The position numbers were made by a program, and so were the translations under genes. The notes below the pieces were generated by a model that was given only the letters and a program-made list of their open reading frames with translations, did not search any database and was not told the origin of the DNA. Shown one piece after another: positions 13,945 to 26,414 of a stretch of DNA of 64,000 nucleotides. Location: NCBI RefSeq assembly GCF_022179465.1, contig NZ_BPQV01000009.1, forward strand, positions 1 to 64,000, given 5' to 3'. Source of the DNA: Methylobacterium organophilum (GTDB taxonomy: Bacteria; Pseudomonadota; Alphaproteobacteria; Rhizobiales; Beijerinckiaceae). Within the stretch, counting starts at the first letter, position 1; the number at the start of each line of letters is the position of its first letter.

Positions 13945-14528
13945 GACGCGGCTCCTTTGTTGTTGGCCCCGGATTGGGGGGCTGCTTAGCGCGAAAAGAA
14001 CACGGTTTCCAGCGAACTAGGCTGAAACGACTCTGAACTGTCCCGGCGTGCCGGCCCTCCGGCGCGCCGTCTGGCGATCACGTTGCCGGAGCCGAGGCGG
14101 GCGGATGAACACCCCGATCGCCCAGCAGGAGCCGTGCCTGAACCCGCGCTCTTCCCGTTTCTTGCGGCGATTTCGAGACAGCTTGAGCCTTCGCTGCTGA
14201 GCCGGCTGCGCACAATCCTTGTGCGGTGCGATTTTGCACGCCGACCCGTCCGGGGCCACGATTCTGACGCTGCGTTGCATTCCGGTGCCAAGGACAGTAC
14301 TTAGCCCGGCCGTCCGGCGGCGTCTTCCCGTGGAAAGGGGGGCGCCGCGTCTGCCGCACGGGATGGATCCGGTCTCCTCCCTTGGGCAGGATCCGCCCCG
14401 GCTCGATACCGATTCGGGCGGCTTCCCCACTTCGGGGCCGGACGGGGCGGGATCGGGAGCCGTGTTCAGGCGCTCGCGCCCTATCTCCCTCCAACCGCAG
14501 CCCACGACCGAAGGCAGGCAGGAACCTC
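13945..14528. other. Divergent hpnH-hpnN intergenic region
   Basis: A long 584-base spacer that must hold the promoters of hpnH (leftward) and hpnN (rightward). I see no supportable gene in it. A perfect small palindrome GCACAA-TCC-TTGTGC lies at 14210-14224 and the hpnH ribosome binding site at 13952-13958. Any short reading frame here lacks a recognisable domain. Confidence 0.5.
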
Positions 14529-17192
14529 GTGATCGAACGTCTCGTCGCGTTTTCCGTAAAGCGCCGGTGGCTCGTCCTCGCCCTCGCGGCGCTCGTGACC
14601 GTGGCGAGCGCGGGTCTTTCGGCCAAGCTGTTCCGGATCAACACCGATGTCGAGCGGCTGATCGATTCCAAGGTCCCCTGGCGCCAGGACGAGATCGCCT
14701 TCGAGAAGGCTTTCCCGCAGCGCTCCAACCTCGTCGCGGCCGTGATCGACGGCGAGACGCCGGAACAGGCCGAGGAGGCCGCGGCCGAATTGTCGCGGGC
14801 GCTCGCCGCGCACAAGAGCGAGATCGAGACGGTCTACCGTCCGGACGGCGGCCCGTTCTTCGACCGCAACGGCCTGCTCCTGATGTCGCAGAAGGAGCTG
14901 GAGCAGACGACCGAGAAGCTGGTGGAGCAGCAGGGCCTGCTCGGACCGCTCGCCGCCGATCCCTCCCTGCGGGGCATCATGCGGGTGCTCAATCTCGGCG
15001 TGAAGGGCGTGAAGAGCGGCGACGCCAAGCTCGAGGATCTCGAGCGGCCGATGAACCAGATCGACACCACCATCCGGAAGGTGCTCGACGGTCAGCGGGC
15101 GCGGATGTCGTGGCAGGAGCTTCTCGCCGGCGGCAAGTCCACGGTCACGGACAAACGCAAGTTCGTGATGATCCAGCCGCGCCTGGACTACAACGCGCTC
15201 GAGCCCGGCCGCGAGGCGACGAAGCTGATCCGCGACGTCGCCAAGGAGCTGAAGATCACGCCCGAATACGGCATGCGCATGCGCCTGACCGGGCCGGTGG
15301 CCGTGGCCGACGACGAGTTCGCGACGCTCGCCGACGATGCCCTCCTCAACTACTCGCTGACGACGGGCGCCATCGTCCTGTTCCTCTGGTTGGCGCTGCG
15401 CTCCGCGCCGCTCGTCGTCGCCGTGCTGCTCACGACCTTCGCCGGCCTCGTCGTCACGGCGGCGCTCGGCCTCCTCATGGTGGGCGAGCTCAACCCGATC
15501 TCGGTGGCCTTCGCGGCCCTGTTCGTGGGCCTCGGGATCGATTTCGGCATCCAGTTCGCCGTTCGCTACCGGGCCGACCGCTATGTCGAGAACGGGATCG
15601 AACCCGCGATCCGGGCCGCAGCCCGGGGCGTGGGATGGTCGCTGACCCTCGCCGCGGTCTCGCTGCTCGCCGGCTTCTACGCCTTCCTGCCCACCAAGTT
15701 CCGCGGCGTCTCTGAGCTCGGCCTCATCGCCGGCTCGGGCATGATCGTCGCCTATCTCTTCTCGCTGACGGTGCTGCCGGCGCTCATCGCCCTGTTCAAT
15801 CCCAAGGGCGAGAAGCAGGCGGTCGAGACCACCTGGCTCGCCGGGGTCGATCACTGGATCATCGTGCACCGGAAATGGGTGCTGATCGGCGTCGGTCTCC
15901 TGACCGTCGCCGGGATCCCGCTTCTCCTGAAGCTGCCCTTCGATTCCAACCCGATGCACCTGCGCAGCCCGAAGGTGGAGTCGATCGCGACCTATCTCGA
16001 CCTGATCAAGGATCCGGGCACCAGCCCCAACACGATCGACGTGCTGGCGCCGTCGGTGGCGGACGTGCCGAAAGTGTCTGAGCGGCTGAAGAAGCTCGAC
16101 TCGGTGGCCGAGCTCTACAGCATCGACACCTTCGTTCCGCGGGATCAGGACCAGAAGCTCGCGACCATCCAGGAGACGGCGCAGCTCCTCGCACCCTCTC
16201 TCAACCCGGGCCGCAAGCCTCCGCCGCCGACCGACGCGGACAACGTGAAGGCGCTCAAGGAGACCGCGGCCGCGCTCAAGACGATCGCCGGGGACAAGGG
16301 GGGTGCCAAGGCCGCCGGCGATCTCTCCGAGACGCTCGACAAGCTCGCCGCGGCGCCGGTGGCGACCCGCGAGGCGGCCTCCGTCGCGCTCACCACCGAT
16401 CTGAAGACCCTGATGCGGCGCCTGAGCGACCTGCTCAACCCGCAGAAGATCACCCTGGAGAACCTGCCGCCGCAGCTGAAGGCCGAGTGGGTGACCGCCG
16501 ATGGACGCGCCCGCATCGAGGTGCATCCCAAGGGCAATTCCAACGACGACGAGGTGCTGCGGCGCTTCGCCAAGCAGGTGCGCACGGTCGATTCCCATGC
16601 CACCGGCGCGCCTGTGGCGACGACCGAGTCGAGCTACACCATCCTCGGCGCCTTCATGCAGGCCGGCATCACCGCCTTCGTGCTGATCTTCATCATCCTG
16701 TCCATCGCCCTGCGCAAACCCTGGGACGTGGCGATGACGCTCGGGCCGCTGGTGCTGGCGACGCTTTGGACGCTGATGGCGCTCCACGTCATCGGCATGC
16801 CCCTGAACTTTGCCAACATCATCGCCCTGCCGCTGATGCTCGCGGTCGGCGTGGCCTTCCACATCTACTACGTGATCGCCTGGCGGGCGGGCGTGGTCGA
16901 CATGCTGGCCTCCAGCCTGACGCGGGCGATCTTCTTCTCCGCGCTCACCACGGGGACGGCCTTCGGCTCGCTGATGCTGTCGAGCCATCCGGGCACGGCG
17001 AGCATGGGCAAGCTCCTCGCCCTGTCGCTGTTCTTCACCCTGATCGCCGCCTTCTTCGTGGTGCCGGCCTTCCTCGGCCCGCCCCCGGTTCATCCCGACA
17101 AGGATCGGCCGGAGGGCGAGGAAGCCGGCAAGCTGCCCGGGACCAAGCCGGGCACCAACAAGACGATGCGCGAGGCCGCAGCGGTGAAGTGA
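14529..17192 (+). CDS. hpnN: Hopanoid transporter HpnN (RND family)
   Basis: An 887-residue RND-superfamily inner-membrane protein that moves hopanoids toward the outer membrane. It has the expected layout: TM1 near residues 12-30, a large periplasmic domain, and a first membrane block (about 275-425) containing the sterol-sensing-like GLGIDFGIQFAVRYRADRY. A second periplasmic domain and a second membrane block (about 715-860, with ALPLMLAVGVAFHIYYVIAW) follow. The GTG at 14529 is chosen because TM1 follows at once (VIERLVAFSVKRRWLVLALA). Upstream sequence in the same frame is Pro/Arg-rich and lies in the shared promoter region. A stem-loop terminator follows, and hpnK converges from the right. 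Confidence 0.93.
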   Translation: MIERLVAFSVKRRWLVLALAALVTVASAGLSAKLFRINTDVERLIDSKVPWRQDEIAFEKAFPQRSNLVAAVIDGETPEQAEEAAAELSRALAAHKSEIETVYRPDGGPFFDRNGLLLMSQKELEQTTEKLVEQQGLLGPLAADPSLRGIMRVLNLGVKGVKSGDAKLEDLERPMNQIDTTIRKVLDGQRARMSWQELLAGGKSTVTDKRKFVMIQPRLDYNALEPGREATKLIRDVAKELKITPEYGMRMRLTGPVAVADDEFATLADDALLNYSLTTGAIVLFLWLALRSAPLVVAVLLTTFAGLVVTAALGLLMVGELNPISVAFAALFVGLGIDFGIQFAVRYRADRYVENGIEPAIRAAARGVGWSLTLAAVSLLAGFYAFLPTKFRGVSELGLIAGSGMIVAYLFSLTVLPALIALFNPKGEKQAVETTWLAGVDHWIIVHRKWVLIGVGLLTVAGIPLLLKLPFDSNPMHLRSPKVESIATYLDLIKDPGTSPNTIDVLAPSVADVPKVSERLKKLDSVAELYSIDTFVPRDQDQKLATIQETAQLLAPSLNPGRKPPPPTDADNVKALKETAAALKTIAGDKGGAKAAGDLSETLDKLAAAPVATREAASVALTTDLKTLMRRLSDLLNPQKITLENLPPQLKAEWVTADGRARIEVHPKGNSNDDEVLRRFAKQVRTVDSHATGAPVATTESSYTILGAFMQAGITAFVLIFIILSIALRKPWDVAMTLGPLVLATLWTLMALHVIGMPLNFANIIALPLMLAVGVAFHIYYVIAWRAGVVDMLASSLTRAIFFSALTTGTAFGSLMLSSHPGTASMGKLLALSLFFTLIAAFFVVPAFLGPPPVHPDKDRPEGEEAGKLPGTKPGTNKTMREAAAVK

Positions 17193-17237: not shown

Positions 17238-18077
17238 TCACAGGAAGTCGGAGAAGCCCCCGCTCCGGGCTCCCGAGCGTGCGACGGCCTCACGGGCGGC
17301 GGGGGCGATCAGCGCGTCGCGCTCCGCCGCATAGGCGTAACCCGGCGCCTCGCCGGGAAAGCCTCCCGCCGTGGCCGGGTGCGTGTAGAGTTCCGTGAGC
17401 CCGTTCGGCAGATGCGCGAGGAGGCCGGCGACCCGGCCGGGCGTCATGGCGCCGGACCAGGCGAGGCCGAGGGTTCGGTCCGGAATGAGCAGCCCCGCCT
17501 GCCGCGCCCGGGCGGCGAGCAGCGCGGCCCAGGGGGCGATGTCCAGGGCGGCCCGCGGCCGGGCGCTCGGCTCGGCGAGCCGCAGAAGCGGCCGCGGCTC
17601 CCGGGGCACCCGGATCGCCCGCATCCCGTAACGGCGGCCGATCGCGAGCACGGCCCCCGCGATCAGCGGGTGGACGTGGAAATGCTTGTGGGCGTTGACG
17701 TGGTCGAGGGGCAGGCCCGTCGCCCGATAGGCCTCGAATTGTGCCGTGATCTCGGCGGCGAGCTGGCGCCGCGCCGCGGGCCGGGCCGCGAGGTCGAAGC
17801 CGAGGCGGCCCATGTCCCGGCGCATCAGGCCCTGCCCGTCGACGAGGTCGGGCAGTTGCGCCGGCGGCAGGGTCGGCCACGCCTCCACCAGGACGAGATG
17901 CAGGCCGACCCGCAGGGACGGCATCCGCCGGGCGCGCGCGACCGCGTCGGCGGCGGCCGGTGCCGACACCATCAGGCTCGCCGCGGTCAGGATCCCCGCG
18001 CGATGGGCCTGCTCGACCGCCTCGTTCACCTCATCGCTGAGGCCGAAATCGTCGGCCGTCACGACCAGTCGCTTCAC
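17238..18077 (-). CDS. hpnK: Hopanoid deacetylase HpnK (ChbG/YdjC family)
   Basis: A 279-residue YdjC/ChbG-fold deacetylase. HpnK removes the N-acetyl group from GlcNAc-bacteriohopanetetrol made by HpnI, giving the glucosaminyl hopanoid that HpnJ uses. Metal-site segments are visible: the N-terminal VVTADDFGLS with its Asp pair, and VNAHKHFHVHP with clustered histidines. A late TELYTHPA supplies another His. The GTG at 18077 is preferred because the catalytic TADDFG lies eight residues in, as in relatives; the upstream open frame is Pro/Arg-rich. It converges on hpnN and is divergent from the MHS transporter gene, 124 bases away. Confidence 0.88.
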   Translation of the reverse strand: MKRLVVTADDFGLSDEVNEAVEQAHRAGILTAASLMVSAPAAADAVARARRMPSLRVGLHLVLVEAWPTLPPAQLPDLVDGQGLMRRDMGRLGFDLAARPAARRQLAAEITAQFEAYRATGLPLDHVNAHKHFHVHPLIAGAVLAIGRRYGMRAIRVPREPRPLLRLAEPSARPRAALDIAPWAALLAARARQAGLLIPDRTLGLAWSGAMTPGRVAGLLAHLPNGLTELYTHPATAGGFPGEAPGYAYAAERDALIAPAAREAVARSGARSGGFSDFL

Positions 18078-18201
18078 GCGCGTCTCTCCCGCTTGCCTCG
18101 CACCTTCCGGCGGACTGACGGGAGAGCCGGTTCCGGTCAAGAGCGGGGGAGGCCGCAAGCGCGACCGCGACGGCCGGGGCGGCAGCGTGTAGAGCGCGGG
18201 C

Positions 18202-19479
18202 ATGCCCGCCTCCGCTTCCTCCGCCCGCCGGATCCTGATCGCCAGCTTCATCGGCACCGCGATCGAGTTCTACGATTTCTACGTCTACGCCACGGCCGTC
18301 GCGCTGGTGATCGGGCCGCTCTTCTTCCCGCCGGGCGATCAGGCCGCCCAGACGCTGAACGCCTTTGCGACCTTCGCCATCGCCTTCATCGCCCGGCCGG
18401 TGGGGGCGGCCCTGTTCGGGCATTACGGGGACCGGATCGGACGGAAGGCGACGCTCGTCGCCTCGCTGATGATCATGGGCATCTCGACCGTCCTGATCGG
18501 CTGCCTGCCCTCCTATGCCAGCGCCGGCTGGATCGCTCCGGCTCTGCTGTGCCTGCTGCGCTTCGGCCAGGGGATCGGCTTCGGCGGGGAATGGGGCGGT
18601 GCGGCCCTGCTCGCGGTGGAGAACGCCCCGCCCGGGCGGCGGGCGCTGTACGGCATCTTCCCGCAGCTCGGCGCGCCCCTCGGCTTCGTCGCGGCCAATC
18701 TCGCCTTCCTCGGCCTCAGCGTGGCGCTCACCCCGGCGCAGTTCGAATCCTGGGGCTGGCGCCTGCCCTTCCTGGCCTCCGCCGCCCTGGTGCTGGTCGG
18801 GCTCTATGTCCGGCTGAAGCTCACCGAGACGCCGGTCTTCGCCGCGGCCCTGGCCCGGAGCCGGCCGGAGGCGGTGCCGCTGGGCCTGATCCTCACGCGT
18901 CATCGCAGGGCGACGCTGCTCGGCACGGGCGCGATGATCGCCTGCTACGCCGTCTTCTACATCACCACGGTCTTCGCCTTGAGCTGGGGCGTCGGCCGGC
19001 TCGGCTATAGCCGCCCGGCCTTCCTGCTGTTCGAATGCGTCGCCGTCTGCTTCATGGCCCTGGCGATCCCGCTCTCGGGTGCGGCCGCGGACCGGTTCGG
19101 CCGCCGCCCCGTGCTGATCGCGGGCCTCCTCTGCGCCGCCGGGCTCGGCCTGCTGATCGGCCCGCTTCTGGGCAGCGGCTCGGCGGTCGCCGTGCTGGCC
19201 TTCCTCTGCCTCGGCCTGTTCGCCATGGGCTGGATCTTCGGGCCGATGGGCGCCCTCCTGCCGGAGCTGTTTCCGACGCGGGTGCGCTACACGGGCGCCT
19301 CGGTGACCTACAATCTCGGGGGCATTGTCGGGGCCTCGGCGGCCCCCTTCCTGGCGCAGGCTCTGGCCGAACGCGGCGGCATCGGCGCCGTGGGGCTTTA
19401 TCTTGCCGCGGCGGCCGGCATCAGCCTGTTCTGCGTGATGCGGATGCCGGAAACGGCCAAGAGCTCGGTCGCGGACTGA
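18202..19479 (+). CDS. MFS transporter, metabolite:H+ symporter (MHS) family
   Basis: A 425-residue membrane protein with about 12 hydrophobic segments. MHS-family hallmarks are TAIEFYDFYVYATA in TM1, GHYGDRIGRKATLV in the loop between TM2 and TM3, and RFGQGIGFGGEWGGAALL in TM4. These proteins import organic acids, betaines or sugars with protons. The substrate is unknown. It lies inside the hopanoid locus, between hpnK and hpnJ, but on its own promoter and strand. A strong hairpin separates it from hpnJ. A role in hopanoid metabolism is not implied by family knowledge. Confidence 0.85.
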   Translation: MPASASSARRILIASFIGTAIEFYDFYVYATAVALVIGPLFFPPGDQAAQTLNAFATFAIAFIARPVGAALFGHYGDRIGRKATLVASLMIMGISTVLIGCLPSYASAGWIAPALLCLLRFGQGIGFGGEWGGAALLAVENAPPGRRALYGIFPQLGAPLGFVAANLAFLGLSVALTPAQFESWGWRLPFLASAALVLVGLYVRLKLTETPVFAAALARSRPEAVPLGLILTRHRRATLLGTGAMIACYAVFYITTVFALSWGVGRLGYSRPAFLLFECVAVCFMALAIPLSGAAADRFGRRPVLIAGLLCAAGLGLLIGPLLGSGSAVAVLAFLCLGLFAMGWIFGPMGALLPELFPTRVRYTGASVTYNLGGIVGASAAPFLAQALAERGGIGAVGLYLAAAAGISLFCVMRMPETAKSSVAD

Positions 19480-19534: not shown

Positions 19535-20968
19535 TCAGGCAGCCTTGGCGCCGGACTGACGGTCCTTGAGGAAGTGCCAGAACTCGACGCCCTCGCGCAG
19601 GCGGCGCTTCATCATGTCCGGCGAGCGGACCATCTCGCCGACGATCGAGGCGATCTTCGGGGCGCGGAAGTAGAACTTCTTGTAGAAGTCCTCGACCGAG
19701 TTGAAGATCTCGGTATGCGAGAGATGCGGGTAGTGCAGCGGCGCGACCTGCACGCCGTTCTCGTCGACGAGCTCCGCGTTCTCCACGTCGAGCCAGCCGT
19801 TCTCCACCGCCTGCTTGTAGAGGAAGGTGCCCGGATAGGGCGCCGCCAGCGACACCTGGATCGTGTGCGGGTTGATCCGGGTCGCGTACTTGATCGTCTC
19901 CTGGATCGTCTCCTTCGTCTCGCCGGGCAGGCCGAGGATGAAGGTGCCGTGGATGGCGATGCCGAGCTCGTGGCAATCCTTGGTGAACTTCTCGGCCACC
20001 TCGACGCGCATGCCCTTCTTGATGTTGTGAAGGATCTGCTGGTTGCCGGACTCGTAGCCGACGAGCAGCAGGCGCAGGCCGTTGTCGCGGAGGATCTTCA
20101 GGGTCTCGCGCGGCACGTTGGCCTTGGCGTTGCAGGACCAGGTCACGCCGAGCTTGCCGAGCTCGCGGGCGATCTCCTCGGCGCGGGGCAGGTTGTCGGT
20201 GAAGGTGTCGTCGTCGAAGAAGAATTCTTTCGTCTGCGGAAACGCCTTCAGGCAGTACTTGATCTCCTCGATCACGTGGCCGACCGAGCGGGTGCGGTAG
20301 GTGTGGCCGCCGACCGTCTGCGGCCAGAGGCAGAAGGTGCAGCGGCTCTTGCAGCCGCGGCCGGAATAGAACGAGATGTACGGGTGCTTCAGGTAGCCGA
20401 TGAAGTAGTTCTCCATGACGAGGTCGCGCTTGTACACGCTCGTGACGAAGGGCAGCTGGTCCATGTCCGTCATGATCGGACGGTCTTCGTTATGAACGAT
20501 GACGCCCGAAGAGTTACGGTAGGACAGACCCTTGATCTGGGACATGTCGACGCCGTCGGCGACGTCCTTGATCGTGAAGTCGAACTCGTTGCGGGCCACG
20601 AAATCGACGGCGGGCGCCTGGGCGAGGGAGCCGGCGGCATCGACAGCGACCTTGGCGCCGATCAGACCGGCCTTCAGATTCGGGTTCTCGGCCTTCAGCG
20701 CTTCGATGGTCTTCACGTCCGACTTGAAGGACGGGACCGAGGTGTGGAGCACCACGAGATCGAAGTCCTTGGCCTGGCCGCGGATCTCCTCGAGCTTGGT
20801 CTTGTGGGGCGGTGCGTCGATCAGCTTGGAATTCTCGACGAGGGCGGCGGGCTGGGCCAGCCAGGTCGGATACCAGAACGACTTGATCTCGCGCTTGGCC
20901 TGATAGCGGGAGCCGGCGCCCCCGTCGAAGCCATCGAAGGTGGGTGCCTGCAGGAAGAGCGTGCGCAT
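19535..20968 (-). CDS. hpnJ: Hopanoid radical SAM protein HpnJ (cyclitol ether synthase)
   Basis: A 477-residue B12-binding-type radical SAM protein. HpnJ is needed to turn the glucosaminyl head group of bacteriohopanetetrol into the aminocyclitol ether by ring contraction. The radical SAM motif CKSRCTFC has Cys at 206, 210 and 213. The N-terminal 180 residues form a cobalamin-binding-like Rossmann domain typical of this subfamily. I use the ATG at 20968 (MRTLFLQAPTF); a TTG three codons earlier is also possible but lies too close to the likely GAGG ribosome binding site. It is the last gene of the leftward hpnL-hpnM-hpnI-hpnJ operon, 57 bases after hpnI. Confidence 0.93.
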   Translation of the reverse strand: MRTLFLQAPTFDGFDGGAGSRYQAKREIKSFWYPTWLAQPAALVENSKLIDAPPHKTKLEEIRGQAKDFDLVVLHTSVPSFKSDVKTIEALKAENPNLKAGLIGAKVAVDAAGSLAQAPAVDFVARNEFDFTIKDVADGVDMSQIKGLSYRNSSGVIVHNEDRPIMTDMDQLPFVTSVYKRDLVMENYFIGYLKHPYISFYSGRGCKSRCTFCLWPQTVGGHTYRTRSVGHVIEEIKYCLKAFPQTKEFFFDDDTFTDNLPRAEEIARELGKLGVTWSCNAKANVPRETLKILRDNGLRLLLVGYESGNQQILHNIKKGMRVEVAEKFTKDCHELGIAIHGTFILGLPGETKETIQETIKYATRINPHTIQVSLAAPYPGTFLYKQAVENGWLDVENAELVDENGVQVAPLHYPHLSHTEIFNSVEDFYKKFYFRAPKIASIVGEMVRSPDMMKRRLREGVEFWHFLKDRQSGAKAA

Positions 20969-21025
20969 GGGGTTCAAGGCCTCAAGCTAAGCTGTGGGGA
21001 CGATCATCGTTAAATTATGAAAAAC

Positions 21026-22222
21026 TTAGACCGAGGTGGCGCCGGTCTTCTGAGCCAGACCGTGTTCCGGGATCAGCGTACCGTCCGCAACCACACGGTA
21101 ATCGTGACCTTTCCATGTCACGGCCCCGGAGACGAAGCTCCAGGTAAAGCTTGCAAAGGAGAGCATGTCGCGGATCGGCAACAGCCAGTAGGCGTGGGGT
21201 GCCAGGCCGAAGGCGCGCTCGACGCGCAGGCAGAGCAGGATCCGGCAGGCGAGCGCCAGCGCGGCGACGGCGAGCGCGGCGGTGCCGGCGCCCGGCAGCA
21301 GCGCCCCGATCAGCGCCAGCGGGAAGGCGTGGGTGACGATGGAGCCGGCATAGCCCGCGGGATCGACGTTCCGAATCGTGCGGTTCCAGCGCAGCTCGTG
21401 CCGCCACAACCCGGAGAGCGCCGTATCCACGCAGGCATGGCCGATGGTGAAGTTCGGGATCGCGACCCGACTCCCATCGGCGCGGAGGGCCTCGCCGATG
21501 GCGTAGTCGTCGGCGAGGTCGTTGCGGAACGCCTCGAAGCCGCCGATGCGGGCCAGGGACTTGCGCTCGAGCGCGATCGTGGAACCGAAGCACGGCTTCG
21601 CGAGGCCGAGGGAGGTTCCCACGATCACGTTGGTGGCGAACTGCACGTCGATGGCCAGGGCCGCGAGCTGGGCGAAGGGCCCGCGCTCGCCCGGCACGCC
21701 ATGGTAGAGGCAGGTGACGCCGCTCACCCCCGGCTGCGACAGCTCGGCGACGATGCGATCGAGATAGTCGGGGCGCACGCTCATGTCGCTGTCGGCGAGC
21801 ACGATCACGTCGTTCGCGATCGCCTTCGACATGTTGATCAGGTTGGAGACCTTGCGGTTCGAGCCGTGCTGGCTCGCATCGAGCACGAGGTCGATGCGCA
21901 GGCGGGGAAAGCGCTCCTGCAGCCGCCGCACCACGCCGATCGCCGGGTCGGTCGCCGTCTGCACGCCGAAGACCACCTGGACCGGGCCGGCATAGTCCTG
22001 GGCGCAGAAGCTCGCGAGATTCTTTTCGAGATCCGGCTCGTCGCCGCAGAGGGGTTTCAGGATCGTCACGGAGGGGCGCGGCGCCTCCGCGGGCAGGCGC
22101 GGCGACGGGCGACGGGCGAAGCGGCCGGCGAGGAAGGCCGCGAGCAGCACGTAGACGCAGCCCGCCAGCGCCAGCGCCAGCAGCAGCGGAGAGATCCAGG
22201 ACGACAACGCGGTCAGATCCAT
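21026..22222 (-). CDS. hpnI: Hopanoid glycosyltransferase HpnI (GT2)
   Basis: A 398-residue membrane glycosyltransferase that adds N-acetylglucosamine to bacteriohopanetetrol, the first step of the cyclitol ether branch. One TM segment is near residues 10-30. A GT2 catalytic domain follows, with SVTILKPLCGDEP near residue 50 and the DxD-type VLADSDMSV that binds UDP-sugar and metal. Two or more hydrophobic segments occupy the last 130 residues. The ATG at 22222 starts just before the first TM segment. It lies 76 bases downstream of hpnM and is followed by hpnJ. Its cognate deacetylase hpnK is also in the window. Confidence 0.92.
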   Translation of the reverse strand: MDLTALSSWISPLLLALALAGCVYVLLAAFLAGRFARRPSPRLPAEAPRPSVTILKPLCGDEPDLEKNLASFCAQDYAGPVQVVFGVQTATDPAIGVVRRLQERFPRLRIDLVLDASQHGSNRKVSNLINMSKAIANDVIVLADSDMSVRPDYLDRIVAELSQPGVSGVTCLYHGVPGERGPFAQLAALAIDVQFATNVIVGTSLGLAKPCFGSTIALERKSLARIGGFEAFRNDLADDYAIGEALRADGSRVAIPNFTIGHACVDTALSGLWRHELRWNRTIRNVDPAGYAGSIVTHAFPLALIGALLPGAGTAALAVAALALACRILLCLRVERAFGLAPHAYWLLPIRDMLSFASFTWSFVSGAVTWKGHDYRVVADGTLIPEHGLAQKTGATSV

Positions 22223-22298: not shown

Positions 22299-22910
22299 CT
22301 AGGGTGCGGGCTTGGGAGCCAGCATGCCCGCGGTGCGCTCGCGCAGATACGCCACCAGCGTCTCGGCCCCACCGGTCTTCAACGGCTCGGAGAAGCCGGC
22401 CCGCATGGAGGCGACCTCGCTGACATTGCCGTTGAGCAGAACGTCCTGGATTCGGCCCTCCGGGCTGACCACGTAGTCGACGTCGGTCTCGTCGCCGTCC
22501 TTGCTGGTCACGCGGCTGCGCACGATCCGGTTCGGGCCCTGCTCCTCGCTCTGCGGCTTGATGTCGAACTTGCCGCCGGCCGCCTGCGAGAGGCGCCGGG
22601 CGTAGAGGGCGACGAAGTAGCTGCGGAACGCCTCGGCCACGGCGCCCTGCTGCTCGGGCGTGAAGCTCTTCCATTTCGGCCCGACGGCGATGCGCGCCAT
22701 GGTCGCGGTGTCGAACACCTCGGCGAAGGTCGGCCCGACGGCGTCGACGCGGCTCTTCACGTCGTTGGCCCCGCTCTTCAGCGCCGATTCGACCGTGCCG
22801 TAGAGCTTGGCGACCGTGGCGATGGCCGGGTCGTCCGCGGCGAGGACCGGGGCCGTCCCGAAGAGGAAGAGAGCTGCGGCGACCGAGAGGACGCGGCGAG
22901 TCAGGCGCAT
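22299..22910 (-). CDS. hpnM: Hopanoid-associated MlaC-like periplasmic protein HpnM
   Basis: A 203-residue protein of the MlaC/Ttg2D family, periplasmic phospholipid carriers. A signal peptide occupies residues 1-24 (MRLTRRVLSVAAALFLF, cleavage after VLA). The mature region has the usual FRSYFVALYARRL helix and the DETDVDYVVSPEGRIQDVLLNG strand pair. In hopanoid loci this gene is named hpnM and is thought to carry hopanoids or related lipids across the periplasm. Its start overlaps the hpnL stop by 10 bases, so the two are translationally coupled. hpnI follows downstream. Confidence 0.9.
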   Translation of the reverse strand: MRLTRRVLSVAAALFLFGTAPVLAADDPAIATVAKLYGTVESALKSGANDVKSRVDAVGPTFAEVFDTATMARIAVGPKWKSFTPEQQGAVAEAFRSYFVALYARRLSQAAGGKFDIKPQSEEQGPNRIVRSRVTSKDGDETDVDYVVSPEGRIQDVLLNGNVSEVASMRAGFSEPLKTGGAETLVAYLRERTAGMLAPKPAP

Positions 22911-24004
22911 TTCTTGAACTCCGGGCGCTCGATGTCGGGCGTCCTGGCCGGCGCACTCACGACATTGGCGGCGATCCCGTAGCTGCGGCCCGGTTCGAAA
23001 ATGCGGCCGAAGCGTGCCCGGATCGCATCGAAGGTTTCCGGCTTCTCGACGGCGGCCTTGCCCTCCATGGCGTGCCAGGCGATCAGGCCGGGAATGCCGA
23101 TGGAGAGATCGGCGACGCGCTTGACGAGGGACAGGGCGAGGGCCGCCTCCGCGGGGATGCCGAACAGGGCGCAGAGGGCGATCAGGCCGCCCTCCTGGGC
23201 GCCGAGGGCCCCGGGAATGGCGAAGGCGGCGCCGCGCACGGCCTGGGCGAGGCTCTCGATCACCAGGGCCTCGGTGAAGCCCACCGAGAAGCCCATGGCG
23301 TTCAGGCAGACCCAGACCTCGAAGGTGCCGATGATCCAGCCGACGAAATGCAGAAGGATGGCGAGGAGCACGCGGGGGCCGTTGCCGTACATCCGGCGCA
23401 GGCTGTCGTAGAGCACGTCGACCGCGCCGAGCGCCCGCCATTCGCGGGCGGCGGCGAAGCGGGAGAGCGCCGCCTGGATCAGGCGATGCCCGCTGCGGCG
23501 CTGGATCACGTAGAAGGCGATCAAGGCCGGCACCGCCACGACGAGGCCGCCCTCGACCACATGCGCGATCGGGCCGTCGCCCGTGAGCCGGATCAGCAGG
23601 GCGAGGCCGAGCACCGTGAACAGGAGCTGCGTCACGGCCTGGGTCATCAGGTCGACGAACATGCTGGCGCCGGCCATGCCGCCGGGCGTGCCGCGCTTGG
23701 TCAGGAGGCGCGCCCCGATCAGGTCGCCGCCGACCTGGGCGACGGGCAGCAGGGTGTTGATGCCCTCGCGCACGAAGCGCAGCGACACGCAATCCTTCAG
23801 GGCCGGCCGTTCACGGGACGGGAACACGACGAACCAGCCGAGGCCCGCCCAGGCCACGGCGAGGCCGCGAATGGCGACGACGGCGAGCGCGCCCCAGCCG
23901 GCGCTGACGACCGCAGCCGACACGTCCTGCAGCCCTGAGGAGAGGAACAGCCCGACCGCCGTGCACAGTCCCGCGATCAGGGCCAGTGTGGTGAGGCGCT
24001 TCAT
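22901..24004 (-). CDS. hpnL: Hopanoid-associated integral membrane protein HpnL
   Basis: A 367-residue polytopic membrane protein of the UPF0104/lysylphosphatidylglycerol-synthase-TM (flippase-like) family. About seven hydrophobic segments are visible, with family motifs LRFVREGINTLLPVAQVGGDL and IPGALGAQEGGLIALCALFG. It is named hpnL in hopanoid loci; a role in transbilayer lipid movement is inferred from the family. It is the first gene of the hpnLMIJ operon. The ATG follows a GAAAGAGGG ribosome binding site. Its promoter region is shared with the divergent amidinotransferase and contains a clear palindrome. Confidence 0.9.
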   Translation of the reverse strand: MKRLTTLALIAGLCTAVGLFLSSGLQDVSAAVVSAGWGALAVVAIRGLAVAWAGLGWFVVFPSRERPALKDCVSLRFVREGINTLLPVAQVGGDLIGARLLTKRGTPGGMAGASMFVDLMTQAVTQLLFTVLGLALLIRLTGDGPIAHVVEGGLVVAVPALIAFYVIQRRSGHRLIQAALSRFAAAREWRALGAVDVLYDSLRRMYGNGPRVLLAILLHFVGWIIGTFEVWVCLNAMGFSVGFTEALVIESLAQAVRGAAFAIPGALGAQEGGLIALCALFGIPAEAALALSLVKRVADLSIGIPGLIAWHAMEGKAAVEKPETFDAIRARFGRIFEPGRSYGIAANVVSAPARTPDIERPEFKKCA

Positions 24005-24099
24005 AACCCTCTTTCATCGCACGAGGCGTTCGGGGTGTTGGATTTGCGCCGCAGCTTCGAGCGTTCACTCTCGGACAAGGCGCGGAGCGTCTTCCGAAG

Positions 24100-24128
24100 T
24101 TGCAGCTTTGAAAGGTGGTGTCTATCAC
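24100..24128 (+). promoter_or_regulatory. Candidate promoter of the amidinotransferase gene
   Basis: A TTGCAG -35-like box (24100-24105) and a TATCAC -10-like box (24123-24128) are separated by 17 bases. The -10 box lies inside the palindrome at 24118-24139, as expected for a repressible promoter. The boxes are only moderate matches. Confidence 0.35.
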
Positions 24129-24139
24129 CCGATAGACAC
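24118..24139. promoter_or_regulatory. Palindromic operator in the hpnL/amidinotransferase spacer
   Basis: A perfect inverted repeat, GTGTCTATC-ACCC-GATAGACAC, with 9-bp arms. It sits between the divergent starts at 24004 and 24220 in an otherwise unstructured 215-base spacer. The size and symmetry fit a dimeric helix-turn-helix repressor (for example TetR-like). No regulator gene is adjacent. Confidence 0.65.
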
Positions 24140-24219
24140 ACCGTTAGGCAAACAGGCGCTTCGGCCGGCTTTCCTGCATCATTGCGCAGCGCCTTCAAGG
24201 AACAATCTCAGAGGGAATC

Positions 24220-25398
24220 ATGGACCGCGAGATGCCTTTCCCTGCGGAGAGCGCCCTGCTCGATGCCGGCACGACGGACTCGTCCGGAGCCTTCACCGAC
24301 GCTCGGCGCGATCCCGCTCCCCGCAGCCCGGTGATGGCCTGGAACGAGTGGGACCCGCTGGAGGAAGTGATCGTCGGCTCCCTCGACGGAGCGACCATCC
24401 CGACCCACCACCTCACGGTGATCTTCAACCTGCCGCGGGCGGCCCAGCCGTTCTACCGCTTCGCCTCCGGCTGGAAATATCCGAAGTTCATGAAGAAGCT
24501 CGCTCAGGCCGAGCTCGACAACTTCATCTCGATCCTGGCCGGCGAAGGCGTGAAGGTGCGCCGTCCCGATTCGGTCGACTTCTCGAAGAAGTTCAAGGCG
24601 CCCCGCTGGACCTCCCGCGGCTTCTGCGTCGCCTGCCCGCGCGATCCCTATCTCGTGATCGGCGACGAGATCATCGAGAGCCCGATGTGCTGGCGCTCGC
24701 GCTACTTCGAGGGCGATGCCTACCGCTCGCTCTTCAAGGAGTATTTCCGGGCCGGCGCCCGCTGGACCTCGGCGCCGCGTCCTCAGTTGACCGACGATCT
24801 GTACAACTACGACTACCGGGTGCCGAACCTGAAGGCCGGCGAGCCCATGCAGTTCACGGTCAACGAGTTCGAGCCGGTCTTCGACGCGGCCGACTTCGTG
24901 CGCTGCGGCCGCGACCTGTTCGTGACCCGCTCCAACGTGACCAACCTGATGGGCATCGAGTGGCTGCGCCGCCACCTCGGGCCGGGCTTCCGCATCCACG
25001 AGATCGAGAGCCGCTGCCCGCAGCCGATGCACATCGACTCGTCCTTCATGCCGCTCGCGCCGGGCAAGGTCCTGGTCAATCCCGACTACATCGACGTCGA
25101 GAAGCTGCCGGCCGTGCTCAAGAAGTGGGACGTGCTGATCGCCCCGCGCCCTGACCCGGTCTCGGGCTTCATGAGCAAGATCTCGATGTGCTCGCCCTGG
25201 ACCTCGATCAACGTGCTCGCCATCGACGAGAAGAAGATCGTCGTCGACCAGAGCCAGCCGACGCTGATCAAGGCGCTCAAGGACTGGGGCTTCGATCCGA
25301 TCCCGGCGCCGTTCCTGTCCTACGGCCCGTTCGGCGGTTCGTTCCACTGCGCCACCCTCGACGTGCGCCGTCGCGGAACCTTGAAGTCCTACTTCTGA
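24220..25398 (+). CDS. Glycine/inosamine-type amidinotransferase
   Basis: A 392-residue enzyme of the AGAT/StrB amidinotransferase family, which moves the amidino group of arginine to an amine through a covalent Cys intermediate. The active-site segments are intact: EPVFDAADFVRCGRD with Asp222, QPMHIDSSFMPL with His271, and GGSFHCATLDVRRRG with Cys377 near the C terminus. Family acceptors include glycine and aminocyclitols (scyllo-inosamine phosphate in streptomycin synthesis). The ATG follows a GAGGGA ribosome binding site. It is divergent from the hpnLMIJ operon, whose HpnJ makes an aminocyclitol hopanoid. I infer that it guanidinylates the cyclitol amine. Guanidinoacetate synthesis is the main alternative. 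Confidence 0.88.
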   Translation: MDREMPFPAESALLDAGTTDSSGAFTDARRDPAPRSPVMAWNEWDPLEEVIVGSLDGATIPTHHLTVIFNLPRAAQPFYRFASGWKYPKFMKKLAQAELDNFISILAGEGVKVRRPDSVDFSKKFKAPRWTSRGFCVACPRDPYLVIGDEIIESPMCWRSRYFEGDAYRSLFKEYFRAGARWTSAPRPQLTDDLYNYDYRVPNLKAGEPMQFTVNEFEPVFDAADFVRCGRDLFVTRSNVTNLMGIEWLRRHLGPGFRIHEIESRCPQPMHIDSSFMPLAPGKVLVNPDYIDVEKLPAVLKKWDVLIAPRPDPVSGFMSKISMCSPWTSINVLAIDEKKIVVDQSQPTLIKALKDWGFDPIPAPFLSYGPFGGSFHCATLDVRRRGTLKSYF

Positions 25399-25449: not shown

Positions 25450-25556
25450 TCTTCACATGTCCGGTTCGTTGCGCCCCTGACACAGCGCGACTCAATCGGG
25501 ATTAAACGGCCAAGCTCCCCGTGCGGCGGCGGCCCAATATGTCCATAACCGGGGGC

Positions 25557-26414
25557 ATGGAAACAAAGCGTCCCCTCGCCCTTCCCTGCGCTGCCCTCTG
25601 CGCCGTCCTGCTTGCGGGCGGCAGCGCCGCCGCCGCCGACCTCTCCGACCGCATCGCCCCGACGCAGCCGGTCTTCACCCAGGTCGATCCCAACACCTGG
25701 ATCGTCACCGTGACGGGCAACGTGGCCGCGAGCCCGCGCTATCCCGGCGCCTCGCGCTACACCGCCATCGGATATCCGTCCCTCGACATCCGCCATGCGG
25801 GCGAGCCGCGCCGCTTCTCGTCGCCCGACGACGGCTTCAGCTTCGCGCTCTACGACACCGACCTGCTGCGGCTCGGCCCGACCGCCCGCTACGTGCCGGG
25901 GCGCTATTTCGGCGACGACCAGCGCCATCTGCTCGGCTTCCGCGACGCGCGCTTCGCGATCGAGCCCGGCGTGTTCGCCGAGGTCTATCCCGTGTCGAAC
26001 ATCCGCGCGCGGCTGGAACTGCGCCACGGCGTCTACGGCCATCACGGCTTCGTCGGCTCGCTCGGCGCGGATTACATCCTGCCGTTCGACCGCTTCCAGT
26101 TCTCGATCGGCCCGCGCTTCAACTTCGGCGACGCGACCTATGCCCGGAAGTATTTCGGGGTCGAGCCGTTCGAGGCCGCCATCAACGGCCGCGTGACGCC
26201 CTATCGCCCGAACAGCTTCTACGCGGCAGGCGGCCTGGCCGCGCTGACCTACACGCCGAACGAGACCTGGGCCTACACGGTCTATGGCGGCTACAGCCGC
26301 ATCCTCGGCGACGCGGCCGACAGCCCGCTGGTGCGCCGCCCCTTCGGCAACCCGAACCAGTTCAGTCTCGGCCTGAAGGTCGACTATTCCTTCGCGACGC
26401 CCGCCTGGTTCTGA
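25557..26414 (+). CDS. MipA/OmpV-family outer-membrane protein
   Basis: A 285-residue secreted protein. From the ATG at 25557 a clear signal peptide is seen (METKRPLALPCAALCAVLLA, then GGSAAAA). The mature part has alternating amphipathic beta strands, an abundance of Tyr/Phe, a PRYPGASRYTAIGYPSLDI segment typical of MipA/OmpV, and a C-terminal aromatic (AWF) suited to outer-membrane insertion. It is probably a beta-barrel; MipA proteins link to peptidoglycan machinery but function is not fixed. Upstream starts at 25539 and 25521 are possible. Its last 31 bases overlap a small gene on the other strand. Confidence 0.8.
   Translation: METKRPLALPCAALCAVLLAGGSAAAADLSDRIAPTQPVFTQVDPNTWIVTVTGNVAASPRYPGASRYTAIGYPSLDIRHAGEPRRFSSPDDGFSFALYDTDLLRLGPTARYVPGRYFGDDQRHLLGFRDARFAIEPGVFAEVYPVSNIRARLELRHGVYGHHGFVGSLGADYILPFDRFQFSIGPRFNFGDATYARKYFGVEPFEAAINGRVTPYRPNSFYAAGGLAALTYTPNETWAYTVYGGYSRILGDAADSPLVRRPFGNPNQFSLGLKVDYSFATPAWF

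Follow-up and report, generated by a model that had tools for sequence, protein, structure and literature searches.

A candidate hopanoid head-group amidinotransferase encoded beside hpnL in Methylobacterium organophilum

In a 64,000-nucleotide stretch of DNA from Methylobacterium organophilum, hereafter called the window, we have found an intact amidinotransferase gene (AMT) among hopanoid (hpn) genes, and the encoded enzyme very probably has the primary amine on a hopanoid head group as its acceptor. We favor this reading because it fits the linkage of the gene, its co-occurrence with hpnJ in several lineages, its split from a mostly hpnJ-less subset of relatives, and the lipids reported for the genus. 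More specifically, AMT is probably an L-arginine:amine amidinotransferase with the amine of bacteriohopanetetrol (BHT) cyclitol ether (BHT-CE) as its main acceptor. We infer the donor, the acceptor, the order of the steps, and the role of HpnL as follows: Cys377 of AMT, acting with Asp222 and His271, would take up the amidino group of arginine and hand it on to the unsubstituted amine of BHT-CE, so that ornithine and guanidine-substituted BHT-CE are formed. HpnL, a flippase-like membrane protein and the most regular neighbor of AMT, may be what transports the completed, strongly basic lipid.

An intact amidinotransferase gene among hpn genes

The open reading frame of AMT is intact, and comparison with solved enzymes found both the fold of L-arginine:glycine amidinotransferase (AGAT) and the complete Asp/His/Cys triad (Table 1); from the fold and the triad, the protein almost certainly has amidinotransferase chemistry. 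Pfam and NCBIfam scans of the protein named no family. AMT is under purifying selection (dN/dS of 0.11-0.21), with a conserved start and an open frame, and a pseudogene or chance frame is hence ruled out. In a tree of 77 amidinotransferases, the nearest AMT is that of Methylorubrum thiocyanatum (99% over 359 kept columns). An initial annotation of this DNA had claimed the AGAT-type triad of Asp222, His271, and Cys377 as well as the divergent placement of the gene from hpnL-hpnM-hpnI-hpnJ; all three residues are present in the intact frame, and the divergent arrangement is seen in the window. The chemistry class and the hopanoid location given there also agree with the fold, the triad, and the neighboring hpn genes.

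Two other genes of this region deserve a comment. The MFS transporter between hpnK and hpnJ is of the metabolite/H+ symporter type and is encoded on the strand opposite to both. Also, a MipA/OmpV-like gene follows AMT in all three AMT-bearing genomes of genus g41 (L054, L055, and L056) and in some Methylobacterium loci.

Table 1. Features of the AMT region in the window
Feature	Coordinates	Strand	Basis or remark
HpnN, hopanoid RND transporter	14382..17192	+	NF052374, 1104 bits
HpnK, deacetylase	17238..18176	-	TIGR03473, 356 bits
MFS transporter between hpnK and hpnJ	18202..19479	+	TIGR00883, 427 bits, just below the cut-off of 443
HpnJ, radical SAM protein of BHT cyclitol ether synthesis	19535..20977	-	TIGR03471, 811 bits; role from excerpts of PMC12583986
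HpnI, glycosyltransferase	21026..22222	-	TIGR03472, 447 bits
HpnM, MlaC-like, 203 aa	22299..22910	-	TIGR03481, 110 bits (cut-off 160); Pfam MlaC, 101 bits; scores taken within the longer frame 22299-23792
HpnL, LPG_synthase_TM/flippase-like membrane protein, recurrent AMT partner	22901..24004	-	TIGR03476, 353 bits
Intergenic stretch hpnL/AMT, divergent, 215 bp	24005..24219	.	between the two genes
AMT, AGAT-fold amidinotransferase, 392 aa, proposed hopanoid head-group amidinotransferase	24220..25398	+	fold, triad, sequence comparison
Asp222 codon	24883..24885	+	aligns with AGAT 254
His271 codon	25030..25032	+	aligns with AGAT 303
Cys377 codon, expected nucleophile	25348..25350	+	aligns with AGAT 407
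MipA/OmpV-like outer-membrane protein, downstream of AMT	25521..26414	+	recurrent neighbor

Occurrence of AMT and hpnJ in Beijerinckiaceae

We looked for the AMT protein in a sample of 129 genomes from the family and scored hpnJ as a TIGR03471 match over the cut-off. AMT matches were found in 18 genomes, namely nine at 72-100% (the close form), seven at about 60%, one at 41%, and one weak partial match, while 27 genomes had hpnJ. The close form was present in 9 of the 27 hpnJ-positive genomes versus none of the other 102 (Fisher p of 2e-7 with relatedness ignored), and these nine genomes are not nine independent cases because they come from only three genera. The remaining 18 hpnJ-positive genomes are without the close form, which sets the hpnJ background among genomes of the family lacking this form at 18/120. 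In all nine close-form genomes, the window included, AMT lies within 20 kb of hpnI, hpnJ, hpnK, and hpnL. No hpn neighbors were found in the 20-kb regions around the seven 60% forms and the 41% form (the region of L064 spans only 7.4 kb). One genome of the mostly hpnJ-less 60% clade, G102, does carry hpnJ, which falls under the cut-off because it is read in two overlapping frames (L047, G102:C351 14876-16112); the two frames reflect a frameshift or an assembly error.

The survey of co-occurrence proposed in the initial annotation thus finds the close form only in hpnJ-positive genomes of the family, and the close form goes with hpnJ in other lineages as well (see below). The same annotation counted it toward refutation of its proposal if the gene were common in genomes lacking hpnI/hpnK/hpnJ; relatives in such genomes belong mainly to a separate subset with fixed residues of its own, and the close form in the family is not among them.

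Occurrence outside the family

AMT matches were found in 24 of 385 genomes sampled from the class and in 15 of 299 sampled from the phylum. These samples added Methylobacterium G748 (93%), G184 (71%), G311 (two copies, 64%), and G770 and G582 (both 53%), the rest being at 41% or below. hpnJ was found in G748, G184, and G311, with AMT and hpnJ on different contigs in the latter two; the genome search found no hpnJ in G770 and G582.

An alignment scan of named genomes gave at least 571 relatives, and the best 80 of the 571, ranked against L099, were kept: 35 from Methylobacteriaceae, 14 from Streptomyces, and 31 others. Profile searches of these best 80 found HpnI, HpnJ, and HpnL together in 35/35 Methylobacteriaceae loci, three of which (L142, L170, and L188) correspond to genomes already counted in the family survey, and no Hpn protein in any of the 14 Streptomyces loci. 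Among the 31 other loci of the best 80, HpnJ was in the locus in 10, at least one Hpn protein in 18, and none in 13. The lineages with hpn genes near AMT include Sphingomonas, Desulfuromonadales, Hyphomicrobium, Raskinella, a Meg19 'Deltaproteobacteria' MAG, and Scytonema/Rhizonema. Indeed, an NCBIfam scan confirmed HpnK and HpnI in the Desulfuromonadales MAG (L139) and HpnJ in L124; in Rhizonema L118, both HpnK copies pass and HpnI is just under the cut-off (302.7 vs 310).

We then searched whole genomes for hpnJ in 39 carriers, which were 30 of the 31 others (L127 left out), 6 of the 14 Streptomyces, and 3 of the 35 Methylobacteriaceae. hpnJ was over the cut-off in 24 of the 39 and split between contigs in two more. 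For carriers belonging neither to Streptomyces nor to Methylobacteriaceae, this amounts to 23 of 30 (21 over the cut-off and 2 split between contigs); hpnJ was not found in the other seven (L122, L126, L130, L131, L132, L143, and L144), five of which are titled MAG, while Crenalkalicoccus (L130) and SZAS-1 (L143) are not titled as such. None of the six searched Streptomyces carriers had hpnJ over the cut-off. It should be noted that the carriers outside the samples were chosen because they bear AMT, and that the hpnJ background was measured in the family itself and in one cyanobacterial order. In that order, any AMT match was found in 17 of 148 genomes, and hpnJ was present in 3/5 genomes with the close form (at least 73% to the L119 protein; three of these five are carriers already in the named-genome scan), in 0/12 with lower or partial matches, and in 4/54 AMT-negative genomes, taken as the first by number of 131. 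We also considered treating all amidinotransferase matches as one gene and rejected it, given that the 60% and 41% forms of the family lie away from hpn genes and that the lower or partial cyanobacterial matches are without hpnJ in 12/12 cases.

The close form is rare in two further samples. Among 118 genomes from the order to which the Desulfuromonadales MAG belongs, it was found in the seed genome alone (Geobacter sulfurreducens was taken as absent from this sample, as nothing there matched its pilin at more than 82% identity), and likewise among 219 genomes from the family to which the Sphingomonas MAG belongs. Because AMT is missing from most hpnJ-positive genomes of Beijerinckiaceae and from all but the seed in these two samples, it is considered to be an accessory step and not part of the core pathway.

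Some more distant relatives were also noticed. The order that includes the Desulfuromonadales MAG also yielded four amidinotransferases at 37-41% to the L139 protein (L227, L228, L229, and L230), all with a single in-frame stop within the matching region (TAA in three and TGA in one). Conjugative Bradyrhizobium plasmids encode amidinotransferases at about 60% to AMT (L295 7953-9116 and L296 7947-9071), and the amidinotransferase of pCB82_1 adjoins a SugE small multidrug transporter.

Gene trees and separating residues

In the tree of 77 amidinotransferases, one fully supported set of 63 contains all 42 hpnJ-positive rows together with 19 hpnJ-negative and 2 unassigned ones, and each of the nine scored rows beyond this set is hpnJ-negative. 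Thirteen of the 19 hpnJ-negatives fall in one supported subset of 14 rows, composed of six Streptomyces, the 60% forms of Beijerinckiaceae (with G102 unassigned), and SZAS-1. On this tree, 8 changes account for the hpnJ label, versus 22.2 with shuffled labels, and none of 500 shuffles was as low. When the 49 hpnJ-linked rows, which take in L127 and six hpnJ-negatives outside the Streptomyces/60% subset, were compared with 13 rows of Streptomyces and clade B (the 60% forms), three differences were fixed without exception: 167 A/S, 325 S/G, and 346 Q/H. Position 325 aligns with AGAT 355.

This separation bears on the alternative that the product is guanidinoacetate or another small guanidine metabolite and that the hopanoid location is accidental, which we regard as highly unlikely. 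The 60% relatives in Beijerinckiaceae and Streptomyces, which have no hpn neighbors and nearly all lack hpnJ, would be in line with such a role, but on the tree they branch as a supported subset of their own, with other residues fixed, and the linkage to hpnJ recurs in several lineages.

The AMT tree mixes phyla; the gene has therefore moved, and the rows sampled here point mainly to exchange among genomes with hpnJ. In a tree of 59 HpnJ proteins (35 from AMT-positive and 24 from AMT-negative genomes, the positive rows being over-sampled), the presence of AMT needs 9 changes, 7 of which are forced by well-supported branches. The entry of AMT alone into a native hpn locus of Sphingomonas found no support, as HpnJ of two such MAGs also groups with Methylobacteriaceae and away from Zymomonas. 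Since both HpnJ and AMT of the Sphingomonas MAGs group with Hyphomicrobiales, the block appears to have travelled together.

Pairing with HpnL and the cyanobacterial loci

In seven loci (L127, L128, L131, L133, L145, L097, and L099), AMT and an HpnL-type gene are on one strand within 132 bp of each other, with no hpnIJK in the flanks examined. Four of the seven were scanned for HpnL, and the cut-off was passed by L145, L127, and L099 and not by L128. The genomes of five pair loci have hpnJ elsewhere, L131 is without hpnJ, and L127 was outside the search. A charged lipid head group and a flippase-like protein would be the simplest reading of this pairing.

The pairs away from hpnIJK would equally suit an acceptor that is some other membrane amine, such as an aminolipid or a lipid A amine; the HpnL-type protein would then be its exporter, and the hpnJ link would reflect a shared envelope function. 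HpnL resembles LPG_synthase_TM, a family occurring also outside hopanoids, and among the 30 searched carriers outside Streptomyces and Methylobacteriaceae, hpnJ is missing from the pair carrier L131 and from six others. Nonetheless, we give this possibility a very small probability, given that five of the seven pairs are in genomes with hpnJ elsewhere and that excerpts of PMC5358736, PMC5642901, and PMC12583986 name no other guanidine lipid for Methylobacterium.

In Iningainema (L119), only 68 bp separate AMT from an HpnI homologue, HpnK is close by, and hpnJ is on another contig; in Scytonema and Rhizonema, AMT is 60 bp from HpnI and more than 4 kb from HpnJ. Also, excerpts of PMC5642901 report guanidine-substituted BHT-glucosamine in Dolichospermum BIR53 and Nostoc CCY9926. 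These points are what would be expected if AMT, in a close variant of our main reading, acts a step earlier in the pathway, on BHT-glucosamine instead of BHT-CE, guanidine BHT-CE then being formed by HpnJ from the guanidinylated glucosamine or not at all. We consider this unlikely: AMT stays with hpnJ and hpnL in many proteobacterial loci, the order of reactions is not readable from that of genes, and the form named for M. extorquens in excerpts of PMC5358736 is the cyclitol ether.

Several features of the cyanobacterial loci are recorded here in their own right. Scytonema and Rhizonema have tandem pairs of amidinotransferases beside HpnI, two HpnK, and HpnJ (L116 10001-12238 and L118 7257-9493), and the tree separates the two copies. 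A protein of about 295 aa, ferritin-like by eye, is encoded in the cyanobacterial hpn block of L116-L118 (L118:3949-4836, +), and in L122 and L259 a protein resembling it is encoded immediately after AMT (L259:7458-8363, +); the two that were scanned gave no Pfam family, no PDB match was found, and L118 gave only 14.7 bits to AcsF. Related EamA-type transporters are encoded downstream of AMT in L122 and L259 (8348-9169, +), and that of L259 weakly resembles the flippase subunit ArnF (33 bits, under the cut-off).

A wider picture can be drawn only tentatively, and we judge it possible but somewhat doubtful as a whole. AMT would found a subfamily of lipid-acting amidinotransferases that moved horizontally with hpnIJKL through Alphaproteobacteria, Thermodesulfobacteriota, Rokubacteria, and Cyanobacteria; a dedicated flippase would export the product (HpnL in proteobacteria and perhaps an EamA/ArnF-like protein in some cyanobacteria), and the tandem copies of Scytonema and Rhizonema would serve two acceptors, BHT-glucosamine and BHT-CE.

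Reported guanidine hopanoids and their makers

Guanidine cyclitol ethers had been claimed for Methylobacterium at the outset, and excerpts of PMC5358736 indeed report that M. extorquens AM1 makes BHT-CE and guanidine-substituted BHT-CE; the same excerpts do not contain the words 'amidinotransferase', 'hpnI', or 'hpnJ'. As makers of guanidine BHT-CE, excerpts of PMC5642901 list methylotrophs, Zymomonas mobilis, Geobacter sulfurreducens, and cyanobacteria, the last with Dolichospermum, Aphanizomenon, Nostoc, and Gloeocapsa by name; the lipid was proposed as a Geobacter tracer in sediments, a use put in doubt by its occurrence in cyanobacteria. The route from HpnI through HpnK and HpnJ to BHT-CE is described in a 2025 survey of Alphaproteobacteria (PMC12583986), and its main text, section 3.5 included, has neither 'guanidin' nor 'amidinotransferase'. 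This speaks against our proposal, since the cultures of that survey included M. soli, M. oxalidis, and M. rhodesianum, and AMT is present in genomes of all three species (L157, L159, and L176; the M. rhodesianum strain differs from the surveyed one).

The reported maker group of Methylobacterium and its relatives carries AMT, with 35 named loci among the best 80 of the 571 relatives. In cyanobacteria, the close form was found in a Gloeocapsa MAG and others, and a Dolichospermum plasmid has only a 38% relative (none of the named maker strains was recognized among the sampled genomes). Zymomonas is in conflict with our proposal. Four genomes, recognized by pyruvate decarboxylase at 94-100%, all have hpnJ, and none of the four has an AMT match at E 0.001. 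The initial annotation expected the gene in makers of the guanidine form, and this holds for Methylobacterium relatives and fails for Zymomonas, a cited maker with hpnJ and without AMT. The maker status of Zymomonas is a secondary citation of a 1989 paper in excerpts of PMC5642901, and a 2026 model of the Z. mobilis membrane has BHT-CE and BHT-glucosamine as hopanoids, with no 'guanidin' in excerpts of PMC12969272. Either another enzyme acts there, or the citation overstates; the membrane model leans to the latter without being decisive.

A full-text search gave no literature joining hopanoids with amidinotransferase, and since most subscription journals are outside such a search, this is no proof of novelty. 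If AMT is truly a gene for hopanoid guanidinylation, geobiologists could predict the makers from genomes, and membrane biologists could remove head-group charges singly in a tractable organism.

Comparison with known systems

The BHT-CE pathway of HpnI, HpnK, and HpnJ, whose genes are recurrent neighbors of AMT and co-occur with it, has three genes assigned and none for guanidinylation in excerpts of PMC5358736 and PMC12583986. Among the solved amidinotransferases, the closest to AMT is cyanobacterial SxtG (PDB 6u1r, 446 bits; not among the rows of the 77-protein tree), followed by AGAT (1jdw, 356 bits), HsvA (5wpi, 320 bits), the acceptor of which is a polyamine according to the entry title, and StrB1 (1bwd, inosamine-phosphate amidinotransferase; 250 bits, 40% identity). 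The idea of the initial annotation is right in outline, with its analogy to StrB weakened; as StrB1 ranks last among these four, we dropped the analogy as the sole guide to AMT.

The second place of AGAT would favor guanidinoacetate as the product. AMT is nonetheless without the marks of AGAT proper: its closest solved enzyme is SxtG and not AGAT, and Arg322 of AGAT, a position that presumably has a functional role in that enzyme, is replaced by Tyr290 (Ser354 of AGAT corresponds to Cys324). The Tyr290 position is Y or F in 49/49 hpnJ-linked rows, which argues against guanidinoacetate, but because Y is also common to the 13 rows of the hpnJ-less Streptomyces/clade B subset, the difference from AGAT is no argument for hopanoids as such. 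The contexts also differ, AGAT belonging to creatine metabolism and AMT lying among hopanoid genes. The acceptor of SxtG is a small soluble intermediate and that of StrB1 a soluble phosphate ester; to our knowledge, the acceptors otherwise known for this enzyme family are small soluble amines. A hopanoid head group, if it is truly the acceptor of AMT, would thus bring a lipid acceptor to the amidinotransferase family.
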